Shown: positions 1,284-13,473 of the stretch, piece after piece
How the letters are laid out: every line of letters starts with the position of its first letter
Numbering within the stretch: position 1 is the stretch's first letter
From: Opitutales bacterium
GTDB taxonomy: Bacteria > Verrucomicrobiota > Verrucomicrobiia > Opitutales > T3Sed10-336
Assembly: GCA_007130045.1 (NCBI GenBank)
Contig: SLTG01000008.1
Coordinates: forward strand, 1 to 64,000
Direction of reading: 5' to 3'
DNA length: 64,000 nt
Notes under the pieces: model-generated
Databases searched by the model: none
Told to the model about the DNA's origin: nothing
Seen by the model: only the letters and a program-made list of their open reading frames with translations
Made by a program: the position numbers and the translations under genes

Positions 1284-2000
1284 TCAGCCATAGGGCTCAG
1301 CATGTTCTTCCACGATTCTGCGAATCCGCTCGGCGGTCTTTTCTCCGATTCCCTCGATCGCGGCCAGTTCCTCTGCCGAGGCGGAGAGGCATTTTTCCAC
1401 GCTGCCGAATTTCTCCAAGAGACGTTCGGCTCGGTCGGGGCCGATGCCGGGGAGAGTACGGAGGAGACGGACTTTTTGTTTTCGGACTGTTTTGGGTTTG
1501 CGGTGGTTGAGCGGGGCGAGCCCGCCACTGGCACGCCGGAGTTGTCCCGCCGCGTAAAGCATCAGTTTGGCGGTTTCCTTTTGGTCTATGGCGCGGAGCA
1601 CAGGGATACGAAAGATAAGGCTCAACGTGATCAAGGCGCCTTGCAGGGCTTCGCGTTTTATCCCCGTGGCCGAAAAGTCGCGACCGGTCCCTTCGATGAT
1701 ATAGATCACCGGGCAGCCGGTTTTGCCTGCCCGCGAAGCTTGACGAAAAAGCCGAGTGTCGAGTATGGAGGCGGCGAAGTCCGCCGCGGTTTTGCGTTCG
1801 ACCAGCAAGGTGCCATCCACCGAATAATCGCCGTCCGTCAATGTATCCACGGTGACTCGCACTCCCGGATGCTGCTCGAGGAATTCTTTCATGCCAGAAG
1901 GCGATTCGCGATGGTCCATGGTTACGAGGGCGCCGTCCCGGGAGAGATTCGATGGGGATGTAGGCGAAGCGGGATCTTGAGACGAGGCGTTGGCGTTCAT
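1284..2000 (-). CDS. ERCC4-domain nuclease with C-terminal helix-hairpin-helix (XPF/MUS81-like)
   Basis: DTLTDGDYSVDGTLLVERKTAADFAASI (GDY...ERK nuclease motif) and LLRTLPGIGPDRAERLLEKFGSVEKCLSASAEELAAIEGIGEKTAERIRRIVEE (tandem HhH). Confidence 0.85.
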   Translation of the reverse strand: MNANASSQDPASPTSPSNLSRDGALVTMDHRESPSGMKEFLEQHPGVRVTVDTLTDGDYSVDGTLLVERKTAADFAASILDTRLFRQASRAGKTGCPVIYIIEGTGRDFSATGIKREALQGALITLSLIFRIPVLRAIDQKETAKLMLYAAGQLRRASGGLAPLNHRKPKTVRKQKVRLLRTLPGIGPDRAERLLEKFGSVEKCLSASAEELAAIEGIGEKTAERIRRIVEEHAEPYG

Positions 2001-2799: not shown

Positions 2800-3108
2800 T
2801 CATTCTTCGCCGTGCGTATTGGAGCGGGATGGACACGTCGGTGGATAATCCGCCGGGGATTCCGCCACCTGGGAAGCATCGGCTCCTTTTCGGCCCGGCA
2901 CGAACTCTCCGGTGTCGGGATCGAAGTAGGGTTCGCCCCTGGCTTTGCGGCGGGCGAAAATTTCGTTGGCGAAATTGTTCATTTCTTCGTTTGCCCTGAG
3001 TTTTTCGTCGAAACTGAGCCGTCGCCATCCCCGCAGGTTCTCGCGCTCCGCGCCTTCGAACGTGGTTCTAGACCAATCGATGTCGTCTTTGTCCCGGGAT
3101 TTGTTCAT
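2800..3108 (-). CDS. Small hypothetical protein translationally coupled to the upstream nucleotidyltransferase
   Basis: 102-aa ORF. Start ATG overlaps the stop of 3105..3614 by 4 nt (tcat at 3105-3108). Confidence 0.5.
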   Translation of the reverse strand: MNKSRDKDDIDWSRTTFEGAERENLRGWRRLSFDEKLRANEEMNNFANEIFARRKARGEPYFDPDTGEFVPGRKGADASQVAESPADYPPTCPSRSNTHGEE

Positions 3109-3614
3109 GGCAGCGGATCTTCCTGGATTTTGCGAAGGTACTCAATATCGATGCGGTCTTCGGGCCGATCGGCGACTTGCTTCATTTTAATGAGGGTGGG
3201 GATGGTGGCAAAGCGGATTTCCGTAGCCCGGGCGCCGGTCGCTTCCTTCTTGGCGATATTCCATTCGGATTCGAAGTCAAATGGATGCTCGATGAAGACA
3301 TCGAGCTTTGCGCCCGGATGGGCATCGCTCCAGAACTGGAGGACCTGCATGTGCTTCTTATCGCGCCAACCCCGGCGTGTGTCAGGATCGGCAAACTGTT
3401 CGGCGGAGACAGGCACTGTGGGACGGTAGCCGATCCCCGCGAGCGCTTCAAAGGCGTGCGCGATGTTGTCGGGAACGAGTTCAATCACGATGTCCGCATC
3501 CCGAGTCACGCGCAGGTAACCGTGAGCGATCACCGCAAGCCCGCCGACAACGATGAATCGGACCCGAGCGGCATCAAGAGCTTCGACAATGGCATGGAAT
3601 GAGGCGGCCTTCAT
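3105..3614 (-). CDS. Nucleotidyltransferase (MNT/AbiEii-like fold)
   Basis: RFIVVGGLAVIAHGYLRVTRDADIVIELVPDN: GG-A-x(n)-T-D-x-D nucleotidyltransferase core. Confidence 0.75.
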   Translation of the reverse strand: MKAASFHAIVEALDAARVRFIVVGGLAVIAHGYLRVTRDADIVIELVPDNIAHAFEALAGIGYRPTVPVSAEQFADPDTRRGWRDKKHMQVLQFWSDAHPGAKLDVFIEHPFDFESEWNIAKKEATGARATEIRFATIPTLIKMKQVADRPEDRIDIEYLRKIQEDPLP

Positions 3615-3809
3615 GATCTCTTGCCGGCCTCAGCCTGCATAGACGAGTGCGCCGGTATTGCTGAAACCACTTTCGCGGATCTCCCGACAGTCATCCGCGT
3701 GCGAGTCAGTTTGCTCTCGAATTACCCGGTACATGAGATTGAGGAAGGATGGCCGAAATCAGGGAGCCCGGCAACCGTTACCGTACAGGAGTTCGCGTTC
3801 ATATGAACA

Positions 3810-4724
3810 TTAAACCGCCCGTGCTGGCGTGAAGTTGCGGAATTTGCCGGTGGTGATGCGCTGGCTGCTGAATACGGCGGCGATGCTGCGGGCGCGGAGT
3901 TCGGCGGAGTCGGATGAACTGGGCTGGATGTCACGCAGGGCGAGGAGAGAACGTCCGGTGTCGAGGGTGATGGAGGGCGTCCAGATCGGCCAGGTCCAGA
4001 AGGTGTCGTTGCTGCGGTGGCCCGTGAAGCCGGTGGTTTCGAGGTGAGTGCCAACGGGAGAAGTCGGCAGCAAGGGAAGGGCTTCAATGGCGAGGCGGTT
4101 GGCGCCGCGTTGAGTGCGGGTGGGGTCTTGACTGGGATTTTTCCATGCGAGCGCGTAGCGTTTGTCTTCGGCGGGGTCCCAGCGTAGGCCGATTTTCTCA
4201 TCGGGGTAGGTCCAGGTCTCAAACAAAGTCTTTTGGAGTTGCTCCTCGGTGGTGACTTCCGCGAGGTCGTTCATGGTCTTGAGGAAGTGTTGGTGTCCGG
4301 CTCCGCTCATGGTGCGCAGGGCGGTGTCCTCAATGTCGCCTTGCTCGTTGATCGCCACAGTGGAGCCGAAAGCGGCGAAAAAGGCGGCTGAAATCCGGTC
4401 ATCCTCATTAAACCAACGTTCCATCGCCGCCTTGGCTTCCTTTTCGAATTCGCCGGGTTTGAGTTTGAGGTTTTGTGAGAAGGTGAAGAGCCGGTGTTGA
4501 CGCATTTTCGCCAGCTCCGTGTGGAGTTGCGCAACAAAAGGGTCGCGTTCCAGGGGCTGGGGAAAGGAAAGCACCGGCGTCCAGTGCCCGGCGTGGGGTT
4601 TCCAGTGGAGTTTGGTGCCAGGCTGATTCCGGTCGGCGATGCGCCACGTGCCGAGTGCGGCGAGAAAACCTAGGGGATTGGCGCCGTCGAGGCCGGGAAA
4701 GGGAAGCGGGTGGAGGGCGTTCAT
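3810..4724 (-). CDS. Putative type I-G (I-U) CRISPR large subunit (Cas8-like; Csb3/Csx17-like)
   Basis: Starts FPGLDGANPLGFLAALGTWR; last gene of the cas operon; 4-nt ATGA overlap with the cas3 stop (4721-4724). Assigned mainly by context and the N-terminal motif. Confidence 0.6.
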   Translation of the reverse strand: MNALHPLPFPGLDGANPLGFLAALGTWRIADRNQPGTKLHWKPHAGHWTPVLSFPQPLERDPFVAQLHTELAKMRQHRLFTFSQNLKLKPGEFEKEAKAAMERWFNEDDRISAAFFAAFGSTVAINEQGDIEDTALRTMSGAGHQHFLKTMNDLAEVTTEEQLQKTLFETWTYPDEKIGLRWDPAEDKRYALAWKNPSQDPTRTQRGANRLAIEALPLLPTSPVGTHLETTGFTGHRSNDTFWTWPIWTPSITLDTGRSLLALRDIQPSSSDSAELRARSIAAVFSSQRITTGKFRNFTPARAV

Positions 4725-7700
4725 GATGCGGCGGTGGTTTCGAAGTTGGCGATGTCGTCGGCATACCAGCCTTCGGCCTCGGCTTCGCTGGCCTGCTGGT
4801 CCGCGAGGCGCAGGATGGTTTCGAGGAAGGCGAGTCCCCAGGGACCGTGTTGGCGGAGCAATCTCCAGAAACGGTCGGGGACGCCCGAGTCGAGGCGGTG
4901 GGCGGGGTGATCTTTGCGCTCGTTTCCGGAGATAGAGATGGCCGGTGCGCCGGGCAGGCTGTGGGTGCTGAGCGGTAGCGGATCGGGATCGTCGATGACC
5001 GGGGCGAAGGGTCGGGCGTGTCCGTGGTGGGCGGCGATGAGGTGAAGCGCGAGATCGCGAAGGCCGGCGGCATCGGGCAGAAGGTCCGCCGCGTCCGGGT
5101 GGGTGGCAAGCGGGAGCGAGCTGAATTCGTGTCGGAAGCCTTTGGGCAATGCGGAACGTTGGTGCGCGAGTTCTCGTTCGCGGAGGCTGGCGGAGAGGCG
5201 GTCGGATTTTGCCAGGGGTTCGGGAAGGGCGTAGGCGGCGTGTGGGTTGCCGCCGAGGAGCAAGGACTGAAAGCGCGGATCGAGTTTACCCCAGTCGTGT
5301 AGATCGGCGGCGGCAACGAGGCAATTCCGGATGTCTTCGCTCAAACCGAGAACCCGGGCACTGGCGACGACGAGATCCCTGACGTGATCGGTGTGGGCAC
5401 GCAGGGTCACCGTACCGGTGCTGGCGGCGCGGCTCCATTCGTCGGCTTCGTCTTCGGCCTGGCTTACGGTGAGGTTCCGTCCGAGGCGGCGGCGGGTGGT
5501 GAGGACGATGCCGCGCTCGTCGGCATAGCGTGTTTCGATGAAACCGAGCTTGTGCAGTGAAAGCAGGGACTCCCTCAAAGGCTGGGAAAGGGCCTCGTCT
5601 TGCGAGGCTTCTTTGAGGAGACTTCGAAACTCTCTCTGGTTCAGACTTGCGTCCGGATCACTGGCAAAGGTGAGAAGTGCCTGCCAGGCTTCGCCGCCGG
5701 TAACGTTGGGGAAAAGGCCGGCCCGGAGGCGGAGCAAAGCTCGGTCGCGGGTGATGCGGAAAGCCTCTTCCGCGCGATCGACGGAAAGAAGTTGGTCCAA
5801 TGGGAGCGGCTCTTCTTTTTCTTTACGGGTCGCCGGATCGGATGGGGCCTTGGGGATGTGCCCGAGTTGGCTCCAGCCGCCAAGCGTGAGGGGAAGAACG
5901 ATGGTGGCGCCGGGGTAAAGGTCTCCCGGTTGGGTGATTACTTTGCTTTCGGAGGTCCCCCTCCACAGGAGTGCTGTGCCGATCGGATCTTTTGTTTCGT
6001 CTCGACCTGCCGGTGCGTCGGCGGAAGCGGCGGCATCGAGCACATCGCCGGTGTCGGCGAGGGCGAGGGTTTTTGCACTCGCCTGGAAAAACCAGTTTTG
6101 GAAAACGTGCAGGGGGACGGGGAGGGCTTCGACTTGCGAGGGCGGGCAAAGGCTAAGGTTCTGAATGGCGGTATCAAGATCGGCATTCTCCGGAAGGTCG
6201 GCCCGCCAGAGGACGAGAACATCCGGGCGGGCGGTCTGTTTGCCGTGGAGAAAGTGAGCGGGATCGGGGTCGGGCCAGGGGGCGGGATTGGTTTGCGCCC
6301 AGGTGTCGAGGTAGGCGGGAAAGAGGACGGGTGCGGACGATGTCGGGGCCTGGAGGCGGTTGAATTCCTCTTCGGGAAAATTCTTCACAAGGCTACCCAT
6401 GTGGGTGAGTCCGAAATCGACCGAATCCCCGGAGGCGATGGATTGGAGCCAGTTCCACGTTTCCGACAAGGCGTTGCCGTAGATGGGGTCGAGTGGTTGG
6501 CCGTCGGCGGCGAGTTTGTCCAGTTTCTGGCGGTCGGTCTCGATCAGGTGTCCCGGCATGACGATTGCGCCAGTGGCCGAGATGTCGCGTCCAGTACGGT
6601 TGAGGCGGCCAAAGCGTTGGCGAAGGGCGTCCAGGCTCGCGCATTCCGTAACGAGCGCATCGAAGTCGAGATCGGCACCGACCTCAAGGCACTGGGTGGC
6701 CACAATAATTTCAACGGGGGGCGGGGCTTCGCCATCGGGGATCGGGTCGCGGCGGGCGGCGGTTTTGAGGGCGGCCTGGATGCGCTGGGTTTCGGCGTCC
6801 CGGTCAACGGGGCGCATCCGTCCGATCAGGAGAGAAGTGTTCGCCTGAAAGCGAGCCTTTTTTGATTTGGATTCCTTTGCAACTAAGTCGGCGACCAGGT
6901 GGGCGGTGCCCACGCGGTTAACCATGATGGCGAGGGAGCGCGTCGCGGTTTCCGCAATGATGGCGGCCGCTTGATCGAGGAGGTCGGCGGCAAGAGTTTC
7001 GTGCTTCTTGGCCTTGGTTTTTGCCGAGGAGATTGTCAGGCGAACCGGCTTGGTGGCGTTCAGGCGTTTGCTCAGCACCGGATGCTCGCGGTCGGCGTCG
7101 GTGAGGGTGATCGTGTTTGTGACACCCTTGGGAGGCGTGGCGGTCATCTGCACCCAGCGCAGCGGCGGCGGCTGAATGGAGTCCGGGTTTTGAGCGATAT
7201 GGTGTTCGCGAAAACGTTGGAGCGTGGCCACGGTTTCGGCGAAGGGGCGGCTGATGTGGGCTTCGTCGAGAATCCACAGCGCATCCGTCGCGACCAATGC
7301 GGCGTGGATGGGACGGGCGTTGGGGGTGACACCGTATCCGCGGAAGAGCATGCGGGAACCGATTTGGTCGATGGTCGTGGCGACAAGTGTCGGCTGTAGG
7401 AGCGAACGCGTCCAGCGCTGGTCGCGGAAGATCGCTCCGCGGAGTTGGATGCAATCAAGCGGCGGATGGGGAAAGCGATTTCCGTTTTCTGGAACAGGAT
7501 TTAGTTTTAACAATGCCTCGGCAACGGCGGCGCAGGCCGGACGTTCGGAAGCCGGATTTGCCAATGCCTTTGTAATGCGCCGAGCCCGCTCGAAAGCCTC
7601 GTCGACGATAACCCGGCGGTTGACGATAAAGAAGATGCGGCGGCAGGCGTTTCGCTCGCTCACGGGAAGGCTGGCCTGGGTCGCGAGGGCATAGACGGCA

Positions 7701-7873
7701 ACTTCGAGACAGGCGGTTTTCCCGCTTCCGGTGGGGGCGGCGATAAACTCCGGCCAATTTCCGGATGCGGCACGTTCGGCGAAGTCGCGCTGCCAGGGGA
7801 AAGGGTCGAGGGTCTGCCCGTCGTCGGTGCAATTGAATTCGCGGAAGAATTCTTCGAACGTGGGAAAACTCAT
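4721..7873 (-). CDS. cas3: CRISPR-associated helicase/nuclease Cas3, type I-G architecture (helicase then C-terminal HD)
   Basis: Walker A APTGSGKTA, Walker B ILDEAH, HD motif AADLHDWGKLDPRFQSLLLGG, later AAHHGHARPF. Confidence 0.9.
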   Translation of the reverse strand: MSFPTFEEFFREFNCTDDGQTLDPFPWQRDFAERAASGNWPEFIAAPTGSGKTACLEVAVYALATQASLPVSERNACRRIFFIVNRRVIVDEAFERARRITKALANPASERPACAAVAEALLKLNPVPENGNRFPHPPLDCIQLRGAIFRDQRWTRSLLQPTLVATTIDQIGSRMLFRGYGVTPNARPIHAALVATDALWILDEAHISRPFAETVATLQRFREHHIAQNPDSIQPPPLRWVQMTATPPKGVTNTITLTDADREHPVLSKRLNATKPVRLTISSAKTKAKKHETLAADLLDQAAAIIAETATRSLAIMVNRVGTAHLVADLVAKESKSKKARFQANTSLLIGRMRPVDRDAETQRIQAALKTAARRDPIPDGEAPPPVEIIVATQCLEVGADLDFDALVTECASLDALRQRFGRLNRTGRDISATGAIVMPGHLIETDRQKLDKLAADGQPLDPIYGNALSETWNWLQSIASGDSVDFGLTHMGSLVKNFPEEEFNRLQAPTSSAPVLFPAYLDTWAQTNPAPWPDPDPAHFLHGKQTARPDVLVLWRADLPENADLDTAIQNLSLCPPSQVEALPVPLHVFQNWFFQASAKTLALADTGDVLDAAASADAPAGRDETKDPIGTALLWRGTSESKVITQPGDLYPGATIVLPLTLGGWSQLGHIPKAPSDPATRKEKEEPLPLDQLLSVDRAEEAFRITRDRALLRLRAGLFPNVTGGEAWQALLTFASDPDASLNQREFRSLLKEASQDEALSQPLRESLLSLHKLGFIETRYADERGIVLTTRRRLGRNLTVSQAEDEADEWSRAASTGTVTLRAHTDHVRDLVVASARVLGLSEDIRNCLVAAADLHDWGKLDPRFQSLLLGGNPHAAYALPEPLAKSDRLSASLRERELAHQRSALPKGFRHEFSSLPLATHPDAADLLPDAAGLRDLALHLIAAHHGHARPFAPVIDDPDPLPLSTHSLPGAPAISISGNERKDHPAHRLDSGVPDRFWRLLRQHGPWGLAFLETILRLADQQASEAEAEGWYADDIANFETTAAS

Positions 7874-8394
7874 GACTTGTTGGCGGTATGAAAACCGATG
7901 GCGCGGTTGGGTTTTTTTTCAGGGGGTTGGAGGAGGGGCAGGAGTTTCTGGTAAAGGCCCCAGAGGGCCTGGTCTTGCTGCATGAGGGTTTTGTCGATTT
8001 CGGCCAGGCGTTTGAGGATGGTGGTATTGGCCATGAGTTCCTCGCGCATCTTCACAAATGCCCGAATGACGTAGACGCTCATCGCAACCGTCCGCTCGGA
8101 GTTCAGGATTGTCGAGGCCATGAGCGCGCCGTGCTCGGTGAAGACTCGCGGTGGTTTTCGTCGCCCGCCACGGCCTTTTGATCTTCCAGTTTGGAACATC
8201 AATTCTCTAAATTCTTTGTCTGTAAGGACAAATGAGAATTCATCGGGAAAACGAGCCAGGTTTCTCCCTACAGCTTTATTGAAATTTCCGGTCGTGACCT
8301 GATAAATCCCGGCCAGATCGCTATCCAAAACGACGTGAAGACCTCGAATGGTGTGGATGGGGAGGTCTTGAAGAATTTCCCGGTTCCGCGTCAT
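7870..8394 (-). CDS. ORF6N (KilA-N/RhuM-like) DNA-binding domain protein embedded in the cas operon
   Basis: Start at the internal ATG of ORF 7870..8592: MTRNREILQDLPIHTIRGLHVVLDSDLAGIYQVTTGNFNKAVGRNLARFPDEFSFVLTDKEFREL...RKPPRVFTEHGALMASTILNSERTVAMSVYVIRAFVKMRE. ATGA overlaps with csb2 (8391-8394) and cas3 (7870-7873). Confidence 0.85.
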   Translation of the reverse strand: MTRNREILQDLPIHTIRGLHVVLDSDLAGIYQVTTGNFNKAVGRNLARFPDEFSFVLTDKEFRELMFQTGRSKGRGGRRKPPRVFTEHGALMASTILNSERTVAMSVYVIRAFVKMREELMANTTILKRLAEIDKTLMQQDQALWGLYQKLLPLLQPPEKKPNRAIGFHTANKS

Positions 8395-10019
8395 TTCAGA
8401 CCTCCTTTGAACCACGGCTTGCACAACCCATAACCCCGGTAACGGCCGCCTCCGAGGAGGACAGGGCCGAGGACGGGGCGGTCGAAGCGCAGCCAGACAT
8501 GGACCTGGCGGCGGTTGGGGCCGCCGGGACGGGTGGGCATGAGGGGATAGCCGTCGGGTCCGGGCTTGGCGCGGGGGGTGCCGCGATGCCATGAGGTTTT
8601 GTCGATGTCGATTTCAACCGGGTCGGGCAGGCCGATGCGGCGGCAGCTTTCGGTGATGATGGTCGCCACTTCGGCGAGATGACCGCCGCGGTCCTTGCGC
8701 GGGTCGGTTTTGGGATGGCGGTCGAGCACCACGGGGGAGACGCTGGCCCAGACTTCCGCGGGACCGGTCCAAGTGGTGGAACGGAGTGCTTTTGGCGAGG
8801 AGGGACGAAGCTCTTCGCCCAGGGTCCAGACACCCAGTTTGCCGAGGGTCAACTTGAGTTCCTGCGAGAGGCCTTTGGCGTCGTAGAGGAGTTTTCCGAC
8901 GAGCTTGCCCCGGTCTTGCGGGGAGACGGCTCTTGGAAACGCAAGGGCCACGCCGAGGAGGTGTCCGTCGGCATGTTCATTGCCGACGAAGCCCAGTGGG
9001 ATGAGTGCGAGGTGCGGGTGTTCGGAAGGTTTGCCGTCGGATTTGTGGCCGTTCACCCATTCCGGGGTGGGGGCGGTGTGTTTTTCAATGGCTCCGCGCA
9101 GGGCGGTGAGCAGTTGCCAGGTGGATTCGAGTCCGAGGCTGGGGCCTTCCCGTTTGTCGAGAATGAGGAGGGTGTCGTCGAATACGGTGGAGACTGGTGA
9201 AGCTTCGTCCGGATTGTTGGAGATGCGTTGGTAGGCTTGGGTCATGCTGAGGACGGGGCGGCGGAAGGCGGGCGCGGTGAGGCTTGCCTTCCATGGAACT
9301 CCGAATTCGGCTTCGAACTCGGCCTTCAATGCCTTTTGCTCTTTCCCTTGGGTTGATTGGATGCCGACATAAAAATCGTAAAACCGCTCCACTGCTTCGC
9401 CGTTGTATTGTTCGCGGAGGTAGTCGAGGCAGCCGGGGCCGGGCATCCGGAAGCGTTCCAGAGATCTGGTCGCGTTATCTTCCGGAGCGGGCACCCAGCC
9501 TGATGGTTCGTCCGGGGGACTCTCGCTCGACCACATGCGGACCAGAGACGAGGAATGTCCGATGCGGATGACTTTCGCGCAAATCCGCTCCAAAGCGGCG
9601 CGTTGCGTATCGGTCGGTTCCGGCGCAGGCCAATGAAGATAGAGCATCGACTGGTGCGGGCGGACCTTCGGGAAGGTGCGGGGCTGGCGGTTGGTGCGGT
9701 AGGCGGGAATGATCGTCCGTTTGGTTGGCCCCATGTCGTTGGGCGGAACAAACACGTCCACGACATCGCGGCGGTCGATGGTCTCCGAACCGAAGATCAG
9801 CGGTGCTTCAAGCTTTTCCAACCAACGCAATGCCTCTTCCTCCTCTTGCCATGACTGAATGGCCTCCGTTTCCAAGGACTCTGGCCGGGATTCGAAATAG
9901 GCTGCCGCCATGGCCATGAAGACGCGTCCGGGATGGGGCGGCCATTCCGCCACCGCACGGTCGCCCGTGGATGTGGCAACCGCGTAACCGGTGAGATATT
10001 CGATGCCCAGGGTAAGCAT
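8391..10019 (-). CDS. csb2: Type I-G CRISPR protein Csb2 (Cas5-Cas6 fusion)
   Basis: N-term MLTLGIEYLTGYAVATSTGDRAVAEWPPHPGRVFMAMAAAYFE; C-term glycine-rich LLGGGRYRGYGLCKPW. Confidence 0.85.
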   Translation of the reverse strand: MLTLGIEYLTGYAVATSTGDRAVAEWPPHPGRVFMAMAAAYFESRPESLETEAIQSWQEEEEALRWLEKLEAPLIFGSETIDRRDVVDVFVPPNDMGPTKRTIIPAYRTNRQPRTFPKVRPHQSMLYLHWPAPEPTDTQRAALERICAKVIRIGHSSSLVRMWSSESPPDEPSGWVPAPEDNATRSLERFRMPGPGCLDYLREQYNGEAVERFYDFYVGIQSTQGKEQKALKAEFEAEFGVPWKASLTAPAFRRPVLSMTQAYQRISNNPDEASPVSTVFDDTLLILDKREGPSLGLESTWQLLTALRGAIEKHTAPTPEWVNGHKSDGKPSEHPHLALIPLGFVGNEHADGHLLGVALAFPRAVSPQDRGKLVGKLLYDAKGLSQELKLTLGKLGVWTLGEELRPSSPKALRSTTWTGPAEVWASVSPVVLDRHPKTDPRKDRGGHLAEVATIITESCRRIGLPDPVEIDIDKTSWHRGTPRAKPGPDGYPLMPTRPGGPNRRQVHVWLRFDRPVLGPVLLGGGRYRGYGLCKPWFKGGLK

Positions 10020-10022
10020 GGA

Positions 10023-11246
10023 TCAGGCTCCGTCTTCGTCGGTGGCTTCGGCGGCGGCGATTTCCTGACTGCGCTGGAGAAGCTCGACGAGTTGATGGGC
10101 GGGCGTGAGTTTGAGGGGTTCCTTGCGCCAGATGAGGCCGGCCCTTTCGGCAGCGGCGACGGCCTCTTTTAGCGTCCGGATGGCGGAGTCGGCATCAACG
10201 GTCAGAACGGAGGGTTTCGCGCCCGGCTTTTCGAGAAGCTCCCATTGAAGTTCTTCCTCCGGCCAGAGGAGACAACGGGAGCGCAGATCATAACCGCTTT
10301 CGGCGGCGAGAGCTGAAGCGGTCAGGGCGAGGGCCGCAAGGACGGTTCGCCCAGCGGCATCGGATTCGGTGGTGGGAGCGGCACCATTGATGGGGAAGCG
10401 TAGGCGTCGCAACGCTGGAAGTGAAAGGACCGTGGTCTGCTCGGCGTAGTCGATGGTGACGCCGCCTGTCTTTCGATCCACATCTGGAGGAATATTGCCG
10501 TGGTTGACTTCCGAGGGTGACACCGCGCCCTTGGCGGAGTCGCTTTTCGCCAAAGTATATCCATCTTTCGATTTCATGACCTTGGCAGCGGCGCGAATCT
10601 GCAATGGATCGATACGACTGCTGGTTTTCGCGCCGGTCTGAGCGTTGATGCCGACAATCTCCGAAACCAGTGCCCGCTGGAACTTTGCGCCCAAGCCGCC
10701 CTTCGGGCCGGTGGAATCCCAGATCCCGAAAATCAGGGCCGTCGGGCAGATTTCGTAAAGCGGGGTGGCATTGTTGAGGGTGGCTTAATCGAGCTTTTTG
10801 CCGATGTCGGATTTACGGAAGGGAGTGCCGTCCAGGAGACTGTCGCGCAGAATGGCATCCGCCGCGCGGTGGGGGGCCTGCAAACTCGTGATCCGGCCAA
10901 TTTCGTCGAGAAGTTCAAGGCCCGAGAAATCGACTTCGATGAGTGGAATCGGGCAATCTTCGAAGCGTCCGGCATCGATGGCCAGTTGGAGCGCTTCTTC
11001 GAGGCGGTTGGCCTGCGACTGAACGGAGTCCATGAGGACGCACGGAATCGTCTGCCAAGAGGTTTTTCCATCGCTGTCGGTAATCGTCACCCGCCGCTTT
11101 TCCGTGGCGTATACTGCGCCCGCATAGGAAGGGGGGAAGGCTTTGTCGCCTTCGCCTCCGGCGGGCTGAAGGCGCGTGCGGGCTCGGAAAGCTGCGGCGG
11201 TCCCAGAGACCGCGGATTGGAGGGTCGAGAGGTCTAGTGTTTTCAT
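10023..11246 (-). pseudogene. csb1: Type I-G Cas7 protein Csb1 interrupted by one in-frame TAA (10785-10787)
   Basis: ORF 10785..11246 (MKTLDLSTLQSAVSGTAAAFRARTRLQPAGGEGDKAFPPSYAG...) and ORF 10023..10694 (GAKFQRALVSEIVGINAQTG...) are in the same frame. The 90 nt between them reads ATLNNATPLYEICPTALIFGIWDSTGPKGG, a conserved Csb1 stretch, with only one stop between the halves. Confidence 0.85.
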
Positions 11247-11367
11247 CTTATGTTTCGTTTTCTTTTGATTCTTTTCTTATTCTTGCACTTGACAGCCTAG
11301 TTGGCAAGGTCAAATTGCTTGAACATGGACGAACCTTTCCACACTGAAATCAGCCGTTACCAGAGTA

Positions 11368-11499
11368 GAGGGACGGTGAGTAGGCGTGGGGCTCCATTGA
11401 AGGTGTTTCGCTTTGTTTTGGCGGATTCCTTGATCGACCGTTTCCGCGCTCTCCGGAGCGCGGCCCCATTGAAGCTTGCAGGTGCGGTCCCATTGAAGC
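11368..11499 (+). CRISPR. Relic CRISPR mini-array: one full 36-nt repeat, one degenerate 36-nt repeat 72 nt upstream, one partial repeat downstream
   Basis: Repeat 11440-11475 GTTTCCGCGCTCTCCGGAGCGCGGCCCCATTGAAGC has a perfect 8-bp stem (CCGCGCTC/GAGCGCGG). Degenerate unit 11368-11403 ends GGGGCTCCATTGAAGG. 36-nt spacer at 11404-11439. Partial unit 11481-11499 is GGTGCGGTCCCATTGAAGC. Confidence 0.75.
11440..11475 (+). repeat. Intact CRISPR direct repeat unit (36 nt, palindromic stem, ATTGAAGC 3' end)
   Basis: Sequence read directly; stem-loop plus ATTGAAGC terminus beside type I-G cas genes. Confidence 0.75.
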
Positions 11500-11502
11500 A
11501 TA

Positions 11503-11739
11503 TTGAAAGGTATGAAAAAGGGGCGCAGCACTTTCGACCCGAACGTCATGGGAGGAAAGCCCTGTGTCCGCGGAATGCGGGTGACGGTGGGGACGATTCT
11601 CGGTTTGTTGGCGGCGGGCCGCAGCACCGAGGAGATTCTGGAACTGTACCCGTATCTGGAAAAAGAGGACATCCGTGCGGTTCTCGAATTCGCGGCGTGG
11701 CGCAGCGAGGAAATCGAAGCCCCCCTCGAACCGGCTTGA
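11503..11739 (+). CDS. DUF433 family antitoxin
   Basis: STFDPNVMGGKPCVRGMRVTVGTILGLLAAGRSTEEILELYPYLEKEDIRAVLEFAAWRSEE, the typical DUF433 signature. Start is TTG at 11503 or ATG at 11512. Confidence 0.85.
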   Translation: MKGMKKGRSTFDPNVMGGKPCVRGMRVTVGTILGLLAAGRSTEEILELYPYLEKEDIRAVLEFAAWRSEEIEAPLEPA

Positions 11740-11888
11740 AAGTTTTGATCGACATGAACCTTTCGCCGGATGCGCAGGGTCCGGCGGTGAGCCGGGTTGT
11801 GCGAAAATACGCGTCGGAACTGATGCAAGGTGTCATTGTGACGATCGAACCCGGACGCGCGAGGGTGAGACTTTTGCCGTTGGTGTAA
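11736..11888 (+). pseudogene. Internally deleted DUF5615 (PIN-like) toxin remnant
   Basis: TTGA overlap with DUF433. Reads LKVLIDMNLSPD, jumps to SRVVRKYASELMQGVIVTIEPGRARVRLLPLV: family N- and C-termini without the roughly 60-70 residue middle. Confidence 0.7.
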
Positions 11889-11936
11889 TTTTGCGGCGGG
11901 ACTCCTCCGCCACGCTTTGCCTGCTTTGGAGGACAA

Positions 11937-12297: not shown

Positions 12298-13473
12298 TTA
12301 CTTCTGGAGTACTTCCGCGCCGTCAGTGATGGCGCAGGCGAGCGTGTCGGGGAAGTGATTGTAGGCTTTACGGTACTCTTCGCGGATGGCTGTCGCGTCG
12401 TCGTCGCCGAACGCCTCCGATGTCAGCGCGATCGCGGCCCCGCCGAATCCGCCGCCGCTGAGGCGGGCGCCGTGCACCCGGGGATGGGCGTTGAGGAGGT
12501 CGGACAGAGTGTCGAGTTCCGGGCAACTGTTCTCGAAGAGAGTGCGCGAGCTTTCGTGGGACTCGTGCATCAGCTTTCCGGTCCGCTCGATGTCGCCGCG
12601 GTTAAGCGCTTCCCTGGTCGCGCGAACGCGTTCGTTTTCACGGATCACGTGGCGCGCGCACTTGACGACTTCCTCGGGCGCGTTGCCTCCGAGTTCATCC
12701 AGGAACGATTCCTTCGCGTCGGTCAGGTATTCGATTTCCGGATGCATCTTCCGGATAATCCGCAGCACCTCCGAGCATTCCGAGTGACGCTTCGAGTAAA
12801 GGGAATCGAGCAGGGAATGTTTCGTTCCTGTATTGAATATTCGGATTCGGCACTCCGGGGGAACGGGAACGAGATCCGCTTCCAGGGTGCGGCAGTCAAT
12901 GAAAACAAGGTGGTTTTCCCTGCCGTGCGCGCAGACTGACTGGTCGAGCGGGCCCGTTGGAACTCCAAGAAACTTGTTTTCCGCGCTGCGGCCGATTTGA
13001 ACGAGGTCCGCGCGAGAAAGGGTCATCCCGTAAAGAGTACCGATGGCGAGAGCGGTGGACAGCTCAAGGGCGGCGCTGCTGCTCAATCCCGCGCCGGAAG
13101 GCAGGTCCGACATGATCGCCAGATTGAACCCGGCATCCGGGCGCAGACCGCGTTCCGCCAGCTCGGTATAGACGCCCAGGGGATAATTCGCCCACCGTCC
13201 TTTGCCTTCGATCTTGCGGATGGCGTCAAGTTCGCAACTTGCAGTTCCGGTTGAAAACTCCGATGCGAATCGCAGAATGCGGTCGGTTCGAATTCCAGCG
13301 GCGACAAGGATCGAGCGGTCGATCGCCGCGCCCGCAACCAGGCCGCCGTTGTAGTCCGTGTGGTTGCCGATAAACTCGATCCGGCCGGGAGCGCGCGTGA
13401 TCACCGCCGGGTGCGACTGGTAAACGGAGCGGAAATAATCGGCGATTCGGCTCTTCGATGCACGTTTGCTCAT
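12298..13473 (-). CDS. galK: Galactokinase
   Basis: RAPGRIEFIGNHTDYNGG, LPSGAGLSSSAALE, RLSGGGFGGAAIAL: GHMP galactokinase signatures. Confidence 0.95.
   Translation of the reverse strand: MSKRASKSRIADYFRSVYQSHPAVITRAPGRIEFIGNHTDYNGGLVAGAAIDRSILVAAGIRTDRILRFASEFSTGTASCELDAIRKIEGKGRWANYPLGVYTELAERGLRPDAGFNLAIMSDLPSGAGLSSSAALELSTALAIGTLYGMTLSRADLVQIGRSAENKFLGVPTGPLDQSVCAHGRENHLVFIDCRTLEADLVPVPPECRIRIFNTGTKHSLLDSLYSKRHSECSEVLRIIRKMHPEIEYLTDAKESFLDELGGNAPEEVVKCARHVIRENERVRATREALNRGDIERTGKLMHESHESSRTLFENSCPELDTLSDLLNAHPRVHGARLSGGGFGGAAIALTSEAFGDDDATAIREEYRKAYNHFPDTLACAITDGAEVLQK

Follow-up and report, generated by a model that had tools for sequence, protein, structure and literature searches.

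Why does a gene for an antirepressor-type protein lie in the middle of a type I-G cas operon, and is it a part of the CRISPR system, a chance arrival or something between the two? The gene occupies 7870–8394 on the minus strand of the window (the whole 64-kb stretch of DNA that was analysed) and encodes 174 aa. An earlier note, made from the sequence alone, had placed an ORF6N gene of this length between csb2 and cas3 with a 4-nt overlap on each side, and the coordinates, the Pfam model and the models of the neighbouring genes agree with that description. In a Pfam profile scan the protein matched PF10543 (ORF6N) at residues 12–96 with E=2.7e-25; the match scored 88.9 bits against a curated cut-off of 27.8 and covered profile positions 2–86 of 86, which makes the protein a member of the ORF6N domain family. 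Such a domain match at such a position inside an operon is far beyond chance. After the domain, a 56-residue helix is predicted at residues 100–155, and the protein ends in the IGFH motif typical of the PDC-S05 family. A KilA-N domain was not found in the protein, as the Pfam scan to E=0.1 gave ORF6N and a weak Phage_pRha match alone. A PDB sequence search was empty at useful E-values. The PDB fold search with the predicted model (pLDDT 74.6) gave no significant match, the best being Ski/Dachshund DNA-binding domains (E=0.26), and therefore the fold comparison was not used as evidence.

The gene is surrounded by a recognizable I-G operon on the minus strand, consisting of cas7g (csb1, 10023–11246), csb2 (a cas5-cas6 fusion, 8391–10019; TIGR02165, E=2e-93), cas3g (4721–7873; TIGR02621, E=1e-212) and cas8g, the 'Cas3-extension' subunit (3810–4724; NF049934, E=2e-79). 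The csb2 stop (8393–8391) and the ORF6N ATG (8394) share a 4-nt ATGA in AAAGGAGGTCTGAAATGACG, the ORF6N stop (7872–7870) and the cas3 ATG (7873) share another in AAGTCATGAGTTTT, and cas8g overlaps the cas3 stop by 4 nt, so the co-directional, overlapping cistrons described earlier downstream of csb2 are indeed there. ORF6N takes its Shine-Dalgarno-like GGAGG and its ATGA start from the 3' end of csb2 (AAAGGAGGTCTGAAATGA), and a Shine-Dalgarno sequence of its own is not evident for cas3g. The GC content of ORF6N is 52.6%, versus 60–63% in the cas genes, and the gene is under purifying selection (dN/dS about 0.1–0.2, with dS near saturation). A sigma-70-like promoter match lies directly upstream of cas7 (11279–11307, minus strand); it is the sole match in 3600–11600, in a scan that gave no more matches than shuffled sequences.

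From its overlaps, the ORF6N gene had been taken for an integral cistron, and the related operons contradict this. The csb2 survey covered 176 genomes of the order and 390 of the phylum, and the cas3g survey covered 390 genomes. Among the 12 sampled I-G loci ordered cas7-csb2-cas3, csb2 was joined straight to cas3 in ten, one carried a HEAT_CxxC_PDDEXK gene at the junction, and one, the window, carried ORF6N. The other sampled csb2 and cas3g loci all lack ORF6N within 1.5 kb. The nearest operon is that of genome G028, which belongs to another family of the same order. Its DNA is 86–88% identical to the window over 3823–7804 and 8403–11246, and the genes between these segments are unrelated: the occupant of the csb2/cas3 junction in G028 is a HEAT_CxxC_PDDEXK nuclease-like gene of 310 aa (E=8e-122). 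A core I-G component would be present at this junction across operons, and ORF6N was present in one locus of 12. Judged by this comparison of sequences, ORF6N is not an integral I-G cistron, and the synteny survey led to the rejection of a conserved I-G cistron.

The overlaps themselves are explained by the junction. A start codon that gives a 4-nt ATGA overlap is available in seven of the ten direct csb2/cas3 junctions. Therefore the coupling is ancestral, and ORF6N sits in it and did not create it. Since the ancestral csb2/cas3 junction has the overlap too, it is weak evidence of integral status. Of the signs that the note had named as refuting an integral cistron, two were found: ORF6N is absent from the other sampled I-G junctions and its GC content is discordant. 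A target-site duplication was not found. No repeats or long target duplication were detected at the borders of the gene, which is flanked by the shared ATGA alone. A transposon-like insertion with a long target duplication was rejected on the same grounds.

By PADLOC, the protein was assigned to PDC-S05 (PDLC04869, E=4.6e-43; PDLC04856, E=4.8e-37, residues 12–164 of 174). The profile match covers most of the protein, and the gene is embedded in a known immune system, here type I-G and in other genomes also type I-C. The PDC set was reportedly presented in a 2024 preprint by Payne et al. PDCs are phage defence candidates of one gene each that came out of a guilt-by-embedding screen, and most of them still await validation (PMC12988326). 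Therefore the general principle, an ORF6N gene inside an immune system, has been published before, as a candidate. The window copy agrees with PDC-S05 in its full-length family match and in being a single gene embedded in an immune operon, the feature that yielded the set. It differs in being joined into an I-G translation relay by an ATGA at both ends. In the accessible literature we found no anti-phage activity reported for PDC-S05 members, and a literature search for ORF6N together with CRISPR found no relevant paper. The attribution to a phage antirepressor-like family was well founded, since the protein matches PHROG 4792 (anti-repressor) with E=4e-18. The gene resides inside a cas operon, not in a phage or prophage. 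Among phage records none reached at least 60% identity to the protein, and the closest were 37–43% identical. A recent phage origin of ORF6N was rejected, as a close phage relative was not found.

The closest relatives of the protein are in G047 (76%, with cas genes not nearby) and G111 (about 75%, for the N-terminal part). The C-terminal half is missing from the G111 copy, and about 300 nt downstream of what remains, at a contig end, there is a fragment of cas3g (TIGR02621, E=3.8e-90). In the tree, these two and the window copy form one clade (support 100/98). By cross-reading the positions of PF10543 and of cas3/cas7c across the same 390 genomes, we also found ORF6N inside two Verrucomicrobiota type I-C operons, between cas7c and cas4. 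The order is cas8c-cas7c-ORF6N-cas4-cas1 in G225, and HEAT_CxxC_PDDEXK-cas3-cas5-cas8c-cas7c-ORF6N followed by cas4 sequence, cas1 and cas2 in G323. The ORF6N gene of G323 is tied to both neighbours: its start shares the same ATGA with the stop of cas7, and its end runs into the start of cas4. G210, of the same genus as G323, has the same I-C arrangement with ORF6N reduced to a 95-aa remnant. The I-C copies form a separate clade (100/92), and thus they were acquired independently, with at least two separate origins.

There are about 282 ORF6N matches (summed) in the 390 Verrucomicrobiota genomes, and most of them are outside defence loci and not near cas genes. With about 282 matches, about 105 operons (each about 9 kb) and about 1.4 Gb sampled, one would roughly expect about 0.2 ORF6N genes in I-C or I-G operons, versus three observed besides the window, two of them independent. 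The earlier reading of an integral cistron rather than a chance insertion holds to the extent that ORF6N recurs in I-C operons and near another I-G cas3 (that of G111), and it fails in that the gene is probably exchangeable cargo and not integral. We also noticed that in locus L003 (1104–5342), upstream of a cas3, repeated fragments of the cas3 5' end are interspersed with MazEF-, ORF6N-, DUF2442- and VapBC-like genes, a pattern that looks as though every newcomer had duplicated the cas3 start.

The cas7/cas4 junction of Verrucomicrobiota type I-C operons is a slot for several kinds of genes. In a census of the best 30 cas7c loci of Verrucomicrobiota type I-C (L168–L197), cas7 was joined directly to cas4 in 11 and the junction was unreadable in five. 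HEAT_CxxC_PDDEXK occupied it in five loci, S23/IVP-like proteins in four (two above and two below the Pfam cut-off), sub-threshold HEAT-S23-like fusions in two, ORF6N in two (one of them a remnant) and a Bro-N protein of PDC-S13 in one. HEAT_CxxC_PDDEXK (PADLOC PDLC01150) thus shares with ORF6N both the csb2/cas3 junction, in G028, and the cas7/cas4 slot. It is an unrelated protein with HEAT repeats and a PD-(D/E)XK-like region, and its gene is usually separated from the cas gene upstream by tens to hundreds of nt, whereas ORF6N overlaps its neighbour.

Upstream of cas7 we found an element that the earlier note did not contain, a CreR-like repeat-spacer-repeat relic at 11394–11475 (plus strand). 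It consists of a degenerate repeat with the 8-nt handle ATTGAAGG to 11403, a 36-nt spacer (11404–11439) and a full I-G type repeat (11440–11475). The first 16 nt of the spacer, its seed end, match 11251–11266 (plus strand), directly 5' of the cas7 start, at 14 of 16 positions (shuffle p about 0.005–0.007), and this is the best non-self match of the spacer in the 64-kb window. The PAM was not imposed in the search, and the match has a 5'-TTA PAM. In type I-G the PAM is TTN and the handle is 8 nt long (PMC9638904). G028 has a different spacer at the equivalent place (unit at L034 13838–13940), which matches the upstream region of its own cas7 (13223–13245) at 20 of 23 positions with PAM TTT; none of 300 shuffles did as well, and the target is the best non-self match in 19 kb.

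CreR is a crRNA-like autorepressor of cas operons, known in type I and V-A operons (PMC12737573). The anatomy of CreR, a degenerate repeat, a spacer and a repeat beside a cas operon with a match in the promoter region, is present in the window and independently in G028. The window element resembles CreR also in that the match to its own cas leader lies at the seed end and has the correct PAM, and it differs in belonging to I-G, in being predicted from sequence and in standing before a cas7 that is interrupted in this genome. RNA folding of the unit (z=−1.48) was not usefully better than that of shuffles. The repeat core was not found near cas7 in G039 and G037, whose arrays share it, and seven further I-G leaders, searched without known repeats of those operons, gave nothing convincing as a CreR-like relic. 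In the two I-C operons with ORF6N, the region near the operon front had no repeat relic. The CreR-like element of the window suggests that Cascade may repress the operon and its ORF6N cargo. As to the regulatory role considered earlier, a regulatory link is indicated for the CreR-like RNA upstream of cas7 and not for ORF6N itself.

The cas7 gene of the window contains an in-frame TAA at about 10785–10787, which was also absent from the earlier note, while cas7 (csb1) is intact in relatives such as G028. Both halves of the interrupted gene have low dN/dS against G028 (0.08–0.09), and therefore the stop either arose very recently or is an artefact of the fragmented assembly. I-G type repeats also occur at the end of contig C83 of the same genome, and cas1 genes are elsewhere in the genome. 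Therefore an array exists in the genome, though the window holds a mere relic.

A recurrent exchangeable cargo slot, between 'integral' and 'chance insertion', fits these results best. We hold it somewhat more probable than even that ORF6N is an exchangeable, co-expressed single-gene defence cargo (PDC-S05) at the I-G csb2/cas3 junction and not a part of the interference complex; it is probably not a core component of CRISPR but a defence gene added to the operon and expressed with it. ORF6N would have taken over the csb2-embedded ribosome-binding site and the ATGA start that otherwise serve cas3, and would pass translation on to cas3 via the second ATGA; the anatomy of this relay is observed, and the coupling is what we infer from it. 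Expression signals other than these borrowed ones are not visible for ORF6N, which would be made with Csb2 and Cas3, presumably from the cas7 promoter. Most likely it would act as an accessory defence factor, a DNA-binding protein of antirepressor type that interferes with an incoming phage or arrests the infected cell; being made only while the CRISPR operon is on might be to its advantage. Since the leader of the operon is matched by the CreR-like guide upstream of cas7, repression of the operon by Cascade is probable, and the ORF6N level would rise once Cascade is occupied or disabled. With cas7 interrupted, the part of this model that depends on Cascade may be inoperative in this genome, except if the stop is an error in the MAG. 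Further points stand against the cargo reading: no activity was found reported for PDC-S05 members in the accessible literature, most ORF6N genes of the phylum, including the 76% relative in G047, are away from cas genes, and the I-C operons with ORF6N have no repeat relic near the operon front.

The repressing guide invites comparison with CrePA, in which a KilA-N toxin, CreP, and a crRNA-like CreA are paired and the toxin is released when anti-CRISPRs disable Cascade (PMC12737573). As with CreP, a crRNA-like guide with a PAM matches the leader of the operon carrying ORF6N, and the antirepressor-type gene is under a promoter that this guide and Cascade could bind. An I-G counterpart of CrePA inside a cas operon is a tentative idea that we consider possible but not likely: Cascade and the CreR-like guide would repress a polycistron with an exchangeable killer or backup-defence gene (ORF6N here, the HEAT-PDDEXK nuclease in G028), and disabling Cascade would switch on fresh Cas protein and the backup weapon. 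The stricter reading, in which ORF6N is a growth-arrest toxin silenced at the cas7 leader by Cascade and a CreR/CreA-like RNA (11394–11475), so that an anti-CRISPR or the loss of Cascade frees the toxin and the infected cell stops dividing, seems unlikely. The guide matches the operon leader in the window and in G028 with the I-G PAM TTN (PMC9638904), CreP toxins are KilA-N-domain proteins repressed by CreA and the Cas effector (PMC12737573), and ORF6N is in the same broad class of phage antirepressor-type proteins. However, Pfam gives ORF6N and not KilA-N at E≤0.1, and therefore the protein was not classed as CreP. Moreover, the gene is inside a cas operon, while the CrePA toxin has its own promoter, and the guide would control the whole operon, as with CreR, and not a separate toxin gene. 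The cas7 stop should already free the toxin here, which argues against strong toxicity in this genome, and a guide is not visible in the I-C operons with ORF6N.

Some of the same data bear on a selfish or neutral insertion, in which a mobile ORF6N gene, widely scattered, inserted where the sequence tolerated it in frame and was kept only since cas3 translation now needs it. The abundance of ORF6N outside defence loci, the ATGA flanks, the cas3 without an evident Shine-Dalgarno sequence, the decaying copy in G210 and the broken one in G111 are all consistent with it, but it is rather improbable given the excess of embedded copies over the rough expectation, the low dN/dS of ORF6N and the lack of a longer repeat or target duplication at the borders. 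A role of ORF6N as transcriptional regulator of the operon is very doubtful. Its family is of antirepressor type and it is co-cistronic with its presumed target, but it is missing from related operons, including that of G028 with its own CreR-like leader, it is placed mid-operon, its relatives are in unrelated contexts, and autoregulation is already offered by the CreR-like RNA. An anti-CRISPR-like brake or an interference subunit is hardly credible: the brake, raised in the earlier note, found no specific support, and nothing but the position between csb2 and cas3 speaks for either. The four-subunit I-G effector is complete without ORF6N (PMC9638904), sister operons do without the gene, and no phage record matches it at 60% identity or more.

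The arrangement is real and recurrent and is of a kind already proposed, that of embedded defence candidates, and a CRISPR-controlled switch is plausible. To the published candidate principle, this analysis adds the location in I-G, the swap with HEAT_CxxC_PDDEXK at one and the same junction, and the relay through two ATGA overlaps. It points to a concrete site in I-G and I-C operons at which several unrelated families of defence-candidate genes stand in for each other, a defined exchangeable slot. PDC-S05, HEAT_CxxC_PDDEXK, PDC-S13 and S23-like genes thereby gain a testable function as accessory weapons expressed with CRISPR. The CreR-like guide makes testable whether, outside the case of the KilA-N CreP, autorepression by Cascade also acts as a dead-man's switch for embedded cargo; toxins of other kinds, and toxins in other CRISPR types, were named as an open question (PMC12737573).

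The wider locus resembles that of Thioalkalivibrio sulfidiphilus (PMC9638904), which has csb2, cas7, cas8g and cas3, and an xpf-like gene and two toxin-antitoxin systems in the wider locus; it differs in gene order, and ORF6N is not mentioned for it in the accessible text. An XPF/ERCC4-like nuclease gene lies downstream of the window operon (1284–2000, minus strand) and parallels the xpf-like gene of that locus. Near the operon there is also an S23/IVP four-helix-bundle gene at 2137–2538, of a family that is also among the cargo types of the I-C slot. A nucleotidyltransferase gene (AbiEii/DUF6036-like) and a small partner gene are downstream of the I-G operon in both the window (2800–3614) and G028 (L034 1862–2657), and they look like a toxin-antitoxin pair. 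Beside the repeat relic, at about 11500–11890 on the plus strand, the translation resembles a DUF433-like antitoxin and, after it, a PIN-like (DUF5615-type) partner that is disrupted.
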